The notes under the pieces: generated by a model
Database searches by the model: none
What the model saw: only the letters and a program-made list of their open reading frames with translations
Told to the model about the DNA's origin: nothing
Part shown: positions 5,266 through 10,574 of the stretch, piece by piece
Layout: every line of letters starts with the position of its first letter
Numbering within the stretch: the stretch's first letter is position 1
Program-made: the position numbers and the translations under genes
NCBI GenBank assembly: GCA_025354565.1
Contig: JANXMQ010000047.1
Span: 1-37,989, forward strand
Reading direction: 5' to 3'
DNA: 37,989 bases
Source: Akkermansiaceae bacterium
GTDB lineage: Bacteria > Verrucomicrobiota > Verrucomicrobiia > Verrucomicrobiales > Akkermansiaceae

Positions 5266-7035
5266 TCAGTGACGCCGCCGGCGCAGCACGGCGAGCATGC
5301 CGAATCCACCGAGCAGTGCGGCGACGTTGGGCTCGGGGACGACGGTGAGATTCACCTGATTTGCAATCGAAGTATCGACCGACCAAGAAAGCCCTGCGCC
5401 TAAGCCCGGCAAGCTGCCTAATGCGAGGGTGTTGTCGGACAGAACGCCAGTGTAGTCGAACAAGCGCCACGCATCACCGGTGGTAGCACCCAGGAAATCG
5501 CCGCTGGTGGCCGTGACGTTGAGAATCCCATCGAGAGTGAAGGCGGAAATTCCCGTAACGAGGTCGTTGATGCCACTGCCAACTGCCTGGTTGGTAGGAT
5601 CGAAGTCAAAGTTGAGTATGCTGGTATTGTTGAGGCCAAGCGTGGGGGTGATGCCTGCAAGCGTCAAGGTGCCGACTCCGGTGACGCCTGGGGAAAGGGT
5701 TGCCCCACCTTGGATCAGTGTCGCGCCCACCGTGCCGGAGCCGGCGAGGGTGGCTCCGGAGGAAACGGTGGTGAGGATGCTGGTGGAGCTATTGCCATGT
5801 ACCACTATACTGCTACGCGTCAAGATTTGTGATTTTGCGCTATAAGGAGTGGCGACCTTATTGTCGCCTCTTTGCCGTCAACATGAAAGAAAGGGACAAT
5901 AAGGTCCCTTCTCCTTATTCCACAAATCCTGATGCGCGGCAGTATAACTTTCCACCAGTGACGTTTGTCGCGCCGGTGTAGGTGTTTGCGCCGGAGAGGG
6001 TGAATGTGCCGCTGCCGGATTTGACGAGCGCGATGTTATCACCGCCAGCACTCTGGCCCGTTGCTACGGCGGCTGTGTTTACGCCGATGACGCCGCTGAA
6101 GCTGCTGTTTGCGCTGCCATTGATCGTGAGGGTGGACTGGCTGCCGCCGCGGTTGGTGACGAAGCTACCCAAGCCGCCCGCGCCTGCGGTGCGGTTAAGG
6201 CCGGCAAGGGTCTGATTCTGGCCGTTGAGATCGAGCACGGCGTTATTGCCGCCCTGAGTGCTGCTGTCTTCCAGCGTCAAGACTGTCCCGCTGGGCTATG
6301 CGCCTCCAAGAAGGTGCGGCGTCATGCCTTTCCCAGACGTAGAGCTTTCCGCCGCCGGTAACCTGACCGTTGATGACCATGCTGTTCCATGATCCGCCAC
6401 CTGTGCCGATGCGGCTGTCGCCCGCCAGGGTAATGCTGCCATTGAGCGTGACCAGACCGGCACCGCCGTCCTGATTGATGGCCCCGCGGTTTTGGGCCGG
6501 CCCCATACTGTTAAGGACGAAGTTATTGGCGATCGTCGCGCCGTTATTCGTCCAAATTGTAAACGAGGAATTGTTCGACGAACCCGTGCCGTCCACCGTG
6601 ACCGTGCCGCTGCTCACACTGCCGCCTACGTCGTATTGCACCAACACAGTGCCAGCCTTGATGGTGAACGCACCGCTCCCGGTGATCGCATTGCTCCCCA
6701 CCACGTTCAAACCGCTGGTATTGTTCCAGACCAGCGTGGCGTTGTTGGTCACGGTGCCAGTGCCATACGAACCGGTGCTGCCGCCCTTGCCGATCTGCAG
6801 CGTGCCGGCGGTGATCGTCGTGCCGCCGGAGTAGCTGTTCGCGCCCGAAAGGACCATCGTGCCGCCACCGTTCTTTTGCAGGCCACCGGTGCCGATCAAA
6901 GTGCCGGTGACGTTGAGATCGACTGCGCCAGAACCAGCGTTCACGGTGAACGTGACGGTGGGAACGGCGAGGTTGACATTCTGGGCACTAATCAAAGAAG
7001 CCGTCCCGCCCGCCGACGATGTGAAGGTATTAAGG
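5266..7035 (-). pseudogene. Broken autotransporter beta-strand-repeat protein with PEP-CTERM tail
   Basis: A partial, mosaic paralogue of the gene at 7134-10574, lacking the 5' end and signal peptide. Homology begins at about 7033 (TFTSSAGGTASLISAQ) and corresponds to 9660-9480, 9060-8776 and 8230-7900 of the intact gene. Three lesions are visible. About 500 bases are missing near 6300-6340, with a frame change. A TAG at about 6296-6298 replaces the Leu codon of GGALPSGT. The 137-bp element at 5808-5944 shifts the frame. The 3' end encodes VPEPNVAALLGGFGMLAVLRRRRH-type sequence, that is a PEP motif, a hydrophobic helix and an arginine cluster, the exosortase sorting signal. The intact paralogue has a different C-terminus, so this was a separately anchored surface protein. 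Its frame from 7035 is the same as that of the upstream gene, separated by one TGA. Confidence 0.85.
5808..5944. mobile_element. 137-bp MITE with TA target duplication
   Basis: The terminal inverted repeats start TACTGC (5808) and end GCAGTA (5944). The match extends inward over 24 positions with four differences, all transitions (5808-5831 against 5921-5944). TA flanks both ends (5806-5807 and 5945-5946). A second inverted block, ATAAGGAG (5842-5849) against its complement (5911-5918), is followed on each side by a small hairpin: GGCGAC-6nt-GTCGCC (5851-5868) and GGGAC-6nt-GTCCC (5893-5908). There is no coding capacity. TA duplication is typical of the IS630/Tc1/mariner superfamily, so this is probably a MITE mobilised by such a transposase. 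Removing 5806-5944 (element plus one TA) rejoins the host gene in frame as GGKLVVHGNSS. Confidence 0.85.
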
Positions 7036-7133: not shown

Positions 7134-10100
7134 TCAGGGTGCCGGAGTCACCACGAGGCGGGCGAATTTTTTCGCATCCGGGGCGCGCGGCACGGTGAGG
7201 GTGACGGTGTCGTAGCCGACAGAGGTATTCTTGAGCACGGTGACGCCGGGATTGTTCGCCTGCGCGGTGCCGGGAACATTGTAGCTGTCCGGCCAGGTGC
7301 TTAGGTTGGTGCCGACCTGAATTGCCACGCTGGTGGTGCCGTCGATCGAGGCTTGGGACCGTTGGAAGGTGAAGACTAGGTTGGCACCGCTGATAGAGAC
7401 GGCAGGCAGTTTGGAGAGGTCGTTGGTGTCCTTGGTGCCACCGAGGACGTATTCCACGCCGTTGCTCACGCCATCGCCGTCGTAGTCTGCACCGGGAGTG
7501 CCGGTCGGCGCGTTGATGGCTTTCCACGAGGCGTATCCGGAGGTGGAGTCAACAAGGAAGCCGCTTGAATCCAGAGCGACAGCGCCGCCGCCGGGTTTCG
7601 TGATTTTTGCGAGTTGCCCGGCGGTCAGGCCGGTAGCGCCAGTGCCAAAGCGGAGGGAGGAGCCGGAGACGTAGGTGCCGGTGAGGGTGAGCGTGCCGCT
7701 CCATGAAAGCAAATGACTGTCTGCAAAGGCCAAGGCGGCACCGCTGCCCAGATGGATGACGCCACTGCCCGAGACGGCCAGCGTACCGACGGTGTCGGTG
7801 AAGGTAGCGGCATCAAGGGAGGCGGTGCCGATAGTGATTTGGGTTCCGTTAGGGAGGATGTCGCTCGCGCCAAGAGCGAGGGTGCCGCCGTTCACGGTGG
7901 TTGCGCCGGTGTAGGTGTTCGCGCCGGAGAGGGTGAATGTGGCGCTGCCGGATTTGACGAGCGCGATGTTATTGCCGCCAGCACTCTGGCCCGTTGCTCC
8001 GGCGGCGGTGTTCACGCCGATGACGCCGCTGAAGCTGCTGTCTGCGCTGCCATTGATCGTGAGGGTGGACTGGCTGCCGCCACTGTTGGTCACGAAGCTG
8101 CCTAGCCCGCCAGCACCGGCAACGCGGTTCAGGCCGGCAAGGGTCTGGCTGTTGCCGTTAAGATCAAACACGGCGTTATTTCCGCCGACAAAGCTCTGAT
8201 CTTCCAGCGTCAAGACCGTCCCGCTCGGAAGCGCGCCGCCGTTGAGTGTGAGATAGGAGTTCGCGGAGCCGTCGCCACGGACGAGCACGCTGCCGGTGAA
8301 AGTGCTCGCGGAGCCGCCGAGCCCCCAATACTGCGTGTGCCCCGGAATGGCGCCGCCAGCCTCAAAGGTCAGGTTGCCCGTGCCGCCGATAGGGTTGCTG
8401 AAATTCGTCGTCCCACCAGCGCTGTAGCCGCGAAGCTTCGCGTCACCGGACAGGGTGACGGTGCCGGAGAACGTGGCCGTTTGTCCGTCGTTGTGGAAAA
8501 CCATCGTGCCGTTGCCGTAGCCGTAGTTGGTGCTCCCCGGATTGCCGCCGCCGCCGAGGGTGAAGTTGTTCGGGATCGTGCCGCTCACCTCGTCCAGCAG
8601 CAACTGGCTGTCCGTGCCGGTAATGGTCACCGCGCCGGTGCCGAGAGAGGCGGCATTGCTGATGCTCAGCCGACCCTGCTCGATCTCCGTGCCGCCGGAG
8701 TAATTATTCGCGCCGCTGGTCAGTGTGAGCTGGGTGGAGGGTGACGCAAATGGGCTCTCATACACGAAGAGTTTACCACCGCCGGTGACTTGGCCGTTGA
8801 TGACCATGCTGTTCCACGAGCCGCCGCCGACGCCGATACGGCTGTTACCCGCGAGCGTGATGCTGCCATTCAGCGTGACCAGTCCCGCGCCGCCGTCCTG
8901 ATTGATGGCCCCGCGGAGTTGTTCCGGCCCCATGCTGTTGAGGACGAAGTTGTTGGCGAGCGTCGCGCCATTGCCCGCCCAGATCATATACGAGGAACTG
9001 TTCGACGAACCAGTGCCGTCCACGGTGATCGTGCTGCTGCTGACGCTCCCGCCGGTGTCGTAATTCACGAACACGATGCCAGCCTTGATCGTCGTCGCGC
9101 CGCTGTAAGTGTTCGCGCCGGTGAGCGTCAGGGTGCCGTTTCCGGTTTTCGTCAACCCGCCGACGTAATAAAACTGGTTGCTTTGCGTGAGTGAGGCTCC
9201 GCCCGCGACATTGATCGTGGCAGTGGTAATGAAGGCGATGGCTGTCTTGAGAGTGCTGTTGCCACTCAGAACGCGCAGCGCGCCGTTTCCGCCCACACCC
9301 GCACCGTAGAGGTGCATGTGCTCGTCGATGCTCAGGCTGCCGTCGATTTCCAAGGTCGCCCCGTCTCTGACGAAAGTCATCGTGTTGCCATCGAAGCCGC
9401 CGACGCCGAGGCCGCTGCTGTTTTGGATCCGCAGCGTGCCCTGCTGGATGTCGGTCTGGCCGCTGTAGCTGTTCGCGCCGGAAAGGACCATCGTGCCGCC
9501 CCCGTTCTTTTGCAGGCCGTTGCCGATCAAAGTGCCGGTGACGTTGAGATCGACCGCGCCAGGACCATCGTTCACGGTGAACGTGACGGTAGAAGCAGCG
9601 AGGCTGACATTCTGGGCACTAATCAACGAAGCTGTCCCGCCCGCCGACGATGTGAAGGTTTGCGTTCCACCGCCTAGGTAGAACGTTCCGAAGCCCGGAT
9701 AGCCAGCGTCGGCTGAGGTGAGTGAGCCGCCCACCACGTTCAAGTTGTAAGGCATCGAGACGACTTGGCCGGCACCGACCTTCAGGGTGCCCCCCTCGTT
9801 GACCTGCAGCGTATCTCCGCCGTGGTTTGTATAGCCCAAGGCGTTAAATGCATTGGCCAGAAGCGTGCCGCCACTGTTCACCGTAATATTGCTGCCGATA
9901 GCGAGTGTGCCATTGGCACTATTGGCATATTTTAGTTCCAGCGTGCCGCCATTGACGGTGGTCGTGCCGGTGTAGGTGTTCGCGCCAGTGAGCGTCTGCG
10001 TGCCGGTGCCTTCTTTCGTGAGGCTCAGGGAGCCACCATCCACCGCGCTGTTGCCAGCGATGCTTCCAGTGAATGTCCCGCTGCCGCCATTGACTCCGAG

Positions 10101-10574
10101 AACGAGACTGCGCGAGCCTGCCCAGTTCACTCCGAGCGCCGACGAGATCGTCACCGTTCCGGCGCCGGTCAGCGCATCCACGCGCACCGGGTTTCCATCC
10201 CACAGGTCCAGCGTCGCGCCACTGGCCACAGCCATCGAGGCGAGGTTATTCGTCCACACGCCGCCCTGCCAGCCGCCGTTTTGCAAAGTGACGCCGGATT
10301 GCACCGTGATGCTGCCGCCAGTCATGTTGATGAAATCGGGGTGGCCGCCGCCGCTGTTGTCGAGGCCGATGGTGCCCGATCCGTTGAAGTTCAGCGTGCC
10401 ATTGCCGATCCATGTGGTGTCGAGAATGTTTTGCGCTGCCGTGTAGTTGACCGTGGTGCCAGTGGTATCGACGGTCGCCGCGTGGGCGTTGGTGTGGAGC
10501 ACGGTGAAGCAGGCGAACACTATGGCAGCACAGCGGGTGGCGGTGGAACGGAACGGATTGTGTATGGATTTCAT
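7134..10574 (-). CDS. Secreted autotransporter-associated beta-strand-repeat protein
   Basis: This protein has 1146 residues. A signal peptide (MKSIHNPFRSTATRCAAIVF, cleavage near THAHAA-type AHAA) is followed by a long Ser/Thr/Gly/Asn-rich beta-helical body. The repeat unit GANTYTGTTTVNGGTL recurs at least five times with variants (GANSYSGQTDI, GANTYSGATTI, GANNYSGGTEI, GANTYTGATTV), the signature of the autotransporter-associated beta-strand family. The last 140 residues are a conserved Verrucomicrobiota domain (DYDGDGVSNGVEYVLGGTKD, then SQASIDGTTS and KKFARLVVTPAP). There is no outer-membrane beta-barrel and no PEP-CTERM, so it is probably released or held at the surface by the C-terminal domain. 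The binding partner is unknown; adhesion or polysaccharide association is inference. No Shine-Dalgarno sequence precedes the ATG. The leader is the repeated region 10572-10815 with an operator-like site about 155 nt upstream of the start. Confidence 0.9.
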   Translation of the reverse strand: MKSIHNPFRSTATRCAAIVFACFTVLHTNAHAATVDTTGTTVNYTAAQNILDTTWIGNGTLNFNGSGTIGLDNSGGGHPDFINMTGGSITVQSGVTLQNGGWQGGVWTNNLASMAVASGATLDLWDGNPVRVDALTGAGTVTISSALGVNWAGSRSLVLGVNGGSGTFTGSIAGNSAVDGGSLSLTKEGTGTQTLTGANTYTGTTTVNGGTLELKYANSANGTLAIGSNITVNSGGTLLANAFNALGYTNHGGDTLQVNEGGTLKVGAGQVVSMPYNLNVVGGSLTSADAGYPGFGTFYLGGGTQTFTSSAGGTASLISAQNVSLAASTVTFTVNDGPGAVDLNVTGTLIGNGLQKNGGGTMVLSGANSYSGQTDIQQGTLRIQNSSGLGVGGFDGNTMTFVRDGATLEIDGSLSIDEHMHLYGAGVGGNGALRVLSGNSTLKTAIAFITTATINVAGGASLTQSNQFYYVGGLTKTGNGTLTLTGANTYSGATTIKAGIVFVNYDTGGSVSSSTITVDGTGSSNSSSYMIWAGNGATLANNFVLNSMGPEQLRGAINQDGGAGLVTLNGSITLAGNSRIGVGGGSWNSMVINGQVTGGGKLFVYESPFASPSTQLTLTSGANNYSGGTEIEQGRLSISNAASLGTGAVTITGTDSQLLLDEVSGTIPNNFTLGGGGNPGSTNYGYGNGTMVFHNDGQTATFSGTVTLSGDAKLRGYSAGGTTNFSNPIGGTGNLTFEAGGAIPGHTQYWGLGGSASTFTGSVLVRGDGSANSYLTLNGGALPSGTVLTLEDQSFVGGNNAVFDLNGNSQTLAGLNRVAGAGGLGSFVTNSGGSQSTLTINGSADSSFSGVIGVNTAAGATGQSAGGNNIALVKSGSATFTLSGANTYTGATTVNGGTLALGASDILPNGTQITIGTASLDAATFTDTVGTLAVSGSGVIHLGSGAALAFADSHLLSWSGTLTLTGTYVSGSSLRFGTGATGLTAGQLAKITKPGGGAVALDSSGFLVDSTSGYASWKAINAPTGTPGADYDGDGVSNGVEYVLGGTKDTNDLSKLPAVSISGANLVFTFQRSQASIDGTTSVAIQVGTNLSTWPDSYNVPGTAQANNPGVTVLKNTSVGYDTVTLTVPRAPDAKKFARLVVTPAP

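Follow-up and report, generated by a model that had tools for sequence, protein, structure and literature searches.

A probable IS630-type miniature element with a REPIN-like hairpin doublet inside a surface-protein gene of an Akkermansiaceae bacterium

The window analysed here is a 37,989-nucleotide stretch of an Akkermansiaceae draft genome (contig JANXMQ010000047.1), and within it a gene for a PATR-repeat surface protein is broken by a short sequence that has inverted ends and two strong hairpins. The ends resemble those of mariner-type transposons and the hairpins resemble REP sequences, and the locus raises the question of which of the two systems, if either, moved the sequence to where it is now. 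Our answer, held with considerable confidence, is that it is a non-autonomous miniature element (MITE) of the IS630/Tc1-mariner type, in which a REPIN/BIME-like doublet stands in place of the lost transposon interior and which has been amplified as a unit.

The element occupies 137 bp (5808-5944), runs from TACTGC to GCAGTA and is flanked by TA on the left (5806-5807) and on the right (5945-5946), all as the original prediction had described it. Its left terminal inverted repeat, TACTGCTACGCGTCAAGATTTGTG (5808-5831, plus strand), and its right one, TACTGCCGCGCATCAGGATTTGTG (5921-5944, minus strand), each fit the family pattern with 0 mismatches; their 24 bp are identical at 20 positions, and the four mismatches, judged by eye, are all transitions, again in line with the prediction. 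Between them lies the cargo (5842-5918), a doublet of two inverted, ATAAGGAG-tagged hairpins. REP 1 (5842-5868, plus strand) is the ATAAGGAG box followed by the hairpin GGCGAC-CTTATT-GTCGCC, and REP 2 (5892-5918, minus strand) is the hairpin AGGGAC/GTCCCT with its ATAAGGAG box on the minus strand, such that each box precedes one hairpin, one per strand, and the common block proposed for the two is there. The 141-nt stretch that includes both TAs folds with a z of -10.45 as plus strand (RNA parameters) and -8.57 as minus strand (DNA parameters), and on neither strand was any of 200 dinucleotide shuffles as stable. No ORF of at least 100 aa is contained entirely within 5808-5944, and a search of the plasmid collection gave no matches. 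Rfam returned six matches in 5500-6300, five of them microRNA models placed on the hairpin; all were far under their gathering scores and were taken as chance.

Excision of 139 bp (5808-5946) from the host gene fuses '...TGATNVTGGKL' with 'VVHGNSSTSILT...' in one frame, which reads ...NVTGGKL and then VVHGNSS... across the joint and continues to a PEP-CTERM-like end, the PEP-CTERM profile itself being matched at a sub-threshold 15.0-15.9 bits against a cut-off of 20.7. Both halves of the gene are on the minus strand, the 3' part with the PEP-CTERM-like end at 5266-5823 and the upstream part with the PATR repeat at 5915-6280, and the listed ORF of each extends into the element. The Pfam PATR profile is matched over positions 1-28 of 30 by the upstream fragment alone (E 1.8e-10) and over positions 1-30 by the joined protein (E 8.1e-11), in a match that spans the joint. 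A second frame change was seen by eye in the translations farther upstream, at about 6280-6330, and the second frame is moreover interrupted by a stop; the restoration of the frame is therefore only local. The proposal that precise removal repairs the reading frame accordingly stands at the joint, where the PATR repeat becomes continuous, and falls for the gene as a whole, of which the MITE insertion is not the sole lesion. The stretch of host gene next to the insertion is repeated at 88% identity in window 7894-8192, inside a 1146-aa reverse-strand ORF (7134-10574), and a further copy at 85% identity lies on G000:C129.

The window genome (G000) is a draft of 5.1 Mb in 257 contigs and is 95% complete. 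A search of it for other copies of 5808-5944, proposed together with the prediction, found five (contigs C24, C206, C130, C46 and C146) that are 94-96% identical over 138-141 query bases and have unrelated flanks, along with older copies at 79-82% (two on C224, one each on C97 and C236) and half or decayed copies on C58, C163, C217 and C246. At up to 3 mismatches the end pattern has 31 matches in the genome, as opposed to none in a backward control. The window element is, then, a member of a mobile family. The half copy on C58 (L039, G000:C58:31494-31636) and a separate REP adjoin a short stretch whose translation matches the end of a frame on C183 (L040, G000:C183:1-2100; 354 aa, ribosomal S1-like by eye only), a match that may reflect a duplicate, a strain variant or a rearrangement; the idea that this half copy disrupts rpsA was dropped because the long ORF of that gene was not found there.

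The family has ends of 24-26 bp with the consensus TATACTGCYRCGCRTCADGATTTGTG, which it shares with an insertion sequence of the IS630 family from Verrucomicrobiales. With up to 2 mismatches allowed, these ends occur in 14 of the 145 genomes searched, the window genome included, and a degenerate pattern run against the genome_contigs collection gave 18 stretches, 14 of which come from one MAG, CALLLI01 (uncultured Verrucomicrobiales), with two from an Opitutales MAG and one each from an 'Akkermansia sp.' MAG and MAG LH_M34. The transposase gene was found in CALLLI01. The 251-bp elements of that MAG with the same ends still carry the opening and closing codons of a transposase gene and, having kept both termini of that gene, are internal deletions; the 3' part of the gene abuts the same end at 0-1 mismatch (C238, C305), and the 5' part adjoins an end at C178, while no whole element was seen on a single CALLLI01 contig. 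The encoded protein matches the NCBIfam IS630 model (E 1.9e-46) and DDE_3 (E 1.2e-26) and has a D-34-E spacing, counted by eye. From this transposase and the adjoining internal-deletion MITEs, the transposon that shares its ends with the window element is identified as a member of the IS630 family. The pairing recurs elsewhere: G333, from the family of the window genome, has an 80-aa stretch of 84% identity to the CALLLI01 transposase adjoining a 1-mismatch end, and C-terminal pieces of the protein lie next to a 1-mismatch end in G385 (72%) and a 3-mismatch end in G372 (81%). G186, G034 and G127 encode full-length relatives at 54-60%, and their ends, which begin T/GACT and stand at TA, diverge more, as do their transposases. 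An IS630/Tc1-like transposase with these ends, which the original prediction had said to look for, thus exists in CALLLI01. Searches of the window genome's own draft, by family and by protein, found no cognate enzyme, which an active family would be expected to have although it does not define such a MITE. The three DDE_3 matches, two of which share 29-33% identity with the CALLLI01 protein, come from different IS630 elements or from a fragment, and the fetched flanks of these loci held no family ends, the best candidates having 8-11 mismatches. Another IS630 with different ends is present at contig ends (L057, G000:C32; L058, G000:C3), and its 3' end sequence also occurs in the flank to the left of the MITE on C24.

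TA duplications were tabulated, as had been suggested, for 28 hand-picked two-ended elements (11 from the window genome, 11 from nine other genomes and six from CALLLI01; half copies, and those truncated at contig ends, were left out). TA was found on both sides in 19, on one side in seven and on neither, in that register, in two; five of the six best copies in the window genome have both. Sites that lack the element were sought as well. Downstream of the C46 copy is a reading frame that by eye is alanine-racemase-like, and in 6/6 aligned loci, from six related genomes, the element is absent and the alignment continues through the joint apart from small gaps there; these six, out of seven loci fetched, were preselected as already crossing the joint, L240 (G040) being excluded because its match stops short of it. 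The two flanks lie on separate contigs in G040, G011, G001 and G013, and this flank arrangement is therefore not general. At the window site, a query joined without the element passes through the joint in all ten homologous loci that were fetched, of which nine lie in other genomes and one is an own paralogue (nine of the ten were preselected for crossing the joint), and the filled sequence is matched in two pieces in six of them and on one side in four. In the homologue L245 (G061:C28) the sequence at the joint is CACTAGCTTGCC, and only one TA stands at the point where the window element has its left TA. The gene family at the window site is a repetitive one, and the homologues may be paralogues; many further matches of the joined flanks start or stop near the window joint because their coverage is limited to the PATR repeat. 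The mariner-like end structure that was first read from the window alone is borne out by the copies, the TA flanks, the empty sites and the IS630 transposase with the same ends.

The hairpins have a distribution of their own. A pattern for the single-hairpin REP has 50 matches in the window genome and two in a control. For 27 of the 50, a terminal repeat with no more than 7 mismatches lies within 115 bp (27 of 1500 random 250-bp stretches reached this level, in a control drawn from loci some of which contain such ends themselves), and the other 23 have no end at up to 9 mismatches within that distance. Four of the free loci fall within 6 kb of C220 (L047, G000:C220:2937-8880), one of them with an additional hairpin. 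Among 41 distinct hairpin sequences, one of them a G034 locus, the inner five stem positions are paired in 39-41 (G-T counted) and the outer two less often (31 and 15), and one position covaries, with GC in 22 and CG in 15. Like REP, BIME and REPIN sequences, the cargo consists of short hairpins that bear a tag and form inverted pairs with nearly constant spacing (PMC3116915, PMC3733652), and its inverted doublets at fixed spacing also occur outside other elements; it differs from them in its tag, GGAG (GGAAC in G022) rather than GTAG/CGTC, in that about half of its matches are in or beside a DDE-type MITE, and in having no RAYT-like locus with the REP in the draft. The genome has nine Y1_Tnp matches, and none of these nine RAYT-like loci, with flanks of up to 1.5 kb, held the GGAG REP, although the draft may miss one; with no linked RAYT gene, the cargo is termed 'REPIN-like'. 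The REP-like character claimed for the internal palindromes is nonetheless upheld, since the same hairpin pair exists away from the ends.

The same ends enclose other cargos in other genomes. G034 has the REP type of the window element, G001 and G072 have a GCTGGCGCG palindrome, and G040, G053 and G097 have other palindromes. Outside CALLLI01, 19 of the 21 cargos measured fold strongly (z -3.5 or lower, 60 mononucleotide shuffles), while those of G054 and G070 and six CALLLI01 cargos did not reach -3.5; C157 was left out of this measurement. Some cargos keep close to the ends: near them were 6/6 matches of the CAACCCC palindrome in G097 (300 kb), 2/3 matches of GCTGGCGCG in G001 (97 kb) and 2/2 in G072 (120 kb). 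A second G097 motif, TAGCCCAGGGTTGCC, was not used on account of its many shuffle matches, and the C123 cargo was rejected as a free repeat, its matches being itself and one partial copy only. In G022, 14 matches of the cargo motif were found in 251 kb, six of them near ends. This cargo is a GGAACCGCGATTT doublet, whose pattern has 99 matches genome-wide, some of them from reading one palindrome in both directions, as opposed to 0 in a control. Stretches were fetched for most but not all of these matches, and the 37 that were chosen contain 29 doublets, 22 of them spaced 66 bp; an end at up to 6 mismatches is nearby in 13 of the 29, and none at up to 9 in 16 (of 4000 random 60-mers, none reached 7 mismatches or fewer and three reached 8). 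One G022 MITE, L227, has a similar outer layout with no doublet, whereas other elements have the doublet before the right end, which fits the doublet as an added module; in the longer MITEs that position could also have arisen by recombination or fusion between MITEs instead of insertion. At G022 L267, L268, L282, L286 and L227 are mosaic MITEs of greater length, in which related ends enclose several palindromes, with or without the doublet.

How the ends and the hairpins came together can be read in other ways. One of them treats the whole 137-bp unit as a REP/BIME moved by a RAYT or TIRYT, with the outer 24-bp repeats as a mere flanking palindrome. The ends, however, agree with those of an IS630 transposon and of elements derived from it by deletion, and they are bordered by TA duplications, which IS200/IS605-type enzymes are not known to make. 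Against the nine Y1_Tnp matches, which would provide candidate enzymes, is to be set the finding that the GGAG REP was at none of those nine loci within the flanks fetched. Tyrosine transposases flanked by terminal inverted repeats have been described (PMC3733652), but for this element we regard such a mover as highly improbable. Another possibility is that the hairpin pair was born inside the MITE and that the 23 free matches are MITEs whose ends have decayed. Half and decayed copies do exist (C58, C163, C217, C246), and yet decay would have had to remove every end at up to 9 mismatches within 115 bp of all 23, four of them within 6 kb on C220, and likewise near 16 of the 29 G022 doublets, and it would leave L227, with its similar outer layout and no doublet, to be accounted for; we think this origin improbable.

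Selection is the remaining alternative, in which the copies are kept as transcription terminators or stabilisers of mRNA 3' ends and mobility belongs only to the past. The strong RNA fold is in its favour, as are the five copies (C24, C206, C130, C123 and C217:15306) that lie about 30 bp or less from the 3' end of a long ORF, the ORFs being taken from stop to stop. The window copy, by contrast, interrupts a coding sequence, and purifying selection would equally leave insertions after genes, and we consider retention for such a role unlikely. Under the preferred reading, that of an IS630-type MITE with a REPIN-like cargo, anatomy, copies and empty sites suggest that a transposase acting in trans would cut at the ends and insert the element at TA, which would be duplicated. 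The original interior of the transposon would have been lost and a resident REP doublet captured in its place, the composite of shell and doublet would later have multiplied as one unit, and one such copy would have landed in the PATR-repeat gene of the window and interrupted it. The shell appears to have acquired local repeat cargo more than once, given the other palindromes within the same ends and the abundance of the G022 doublet in its own genome. A more tentative generalisation, which we put forward as possible but somewhat doubtful, is that one IS630-type pair of ends, present in several Verrucomicrobiales families, repeatedly takes in resident REPIN-like doublets, which the DDE transposase then disperses; if uptake has been repeated, both repeat systems could be movable by either enzyme.

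The ends of Correia/NEMIS elements are TATAGTGG-like, and those of the window family, TATACTGCCGCGC, differ from them. In other respects the kinship is close, for IS630-derived bacterial MITEs that end in TA and have strong stem-loops, such as Correia/NEMIS of Neisseria and RUP of pneumococcus, are already well known (PMC2229807), and like the window family these are TA-ended repeats of about 100-250 bp with target duplication and a proposed IS630-type partner (PMC2229807, PMC2817692, PMC3733652). What sets the window family apart from them, besides the sequence of its ends, is its inside, an independent doublet of REP type that varies from species to species. A loose precedent comes from Anabaena variabilis, in which GTAG-15 dimers were described in 2013 inside TATAGGA...TCCTATA palindromes (PMC3733652). 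There, as in the window element, REP dimers lie within long TATA-ended palindromes, and the section on that species reports no REP-less palindrome and names no transposase (PMC3733652); the window family includes shells in which the REP cargo is a different one or absent, and it has a same-ended IS630 transposase. The statement in the original prediction that no named element has this layout must be qualified by the Anabaena case. Mobile or repeat classes are nested elsewhere too, but with a group I intron as the partner of the MITE in Thiomargarita (PMC4853749) and with a minisatellite in P. gingivalis (PMC4596501). Among the matches listed in the open-licence literature there was no Verrucomicrobia MITE of this kind, and the Anabaena paper (PMC3733652) was the only match for a REP doublet in an IS630-type MITE. 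New in relation to those matches are the MITE family, its IS630 partner, the occurrence of the doublet both free and nested, and a cargo that changes from one species to another.

Two kinds of genomic repeat would in this family travel as one unit. The spread of REP doublets is usually ascribed to tyrosine transposases of their own, the RAYTs, and a doublet carried in an IS630-type shell would have a second, RAYT-independent route of spread, which could explain REP families in genomes without a linked RAYT. The exchange of cargo between related species makes the order of origin testable, and the ends mark an IS630 subgroup with MITEs in environmental Verrucomicrobiales.

Three of the Y1_Tnp domains of the window genome lie inside housekeeping genes, and nothing on such an arrangement was among the literature matches listed. 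They stand in frame and stop-free within the frames of leucyl-tRNA synthetase (L048, G000:C233:36502-39714), GcpE/IspG (L050, G000:C121:14712-17942) and alanyl-tRNA synthetase (L051, G000:C211:22529-25843), and in each of these frames Pfam also finds domains of the host protein next to Y1_Tnp; they look like whole REP-transposase units tolerated in housekeeping genes.
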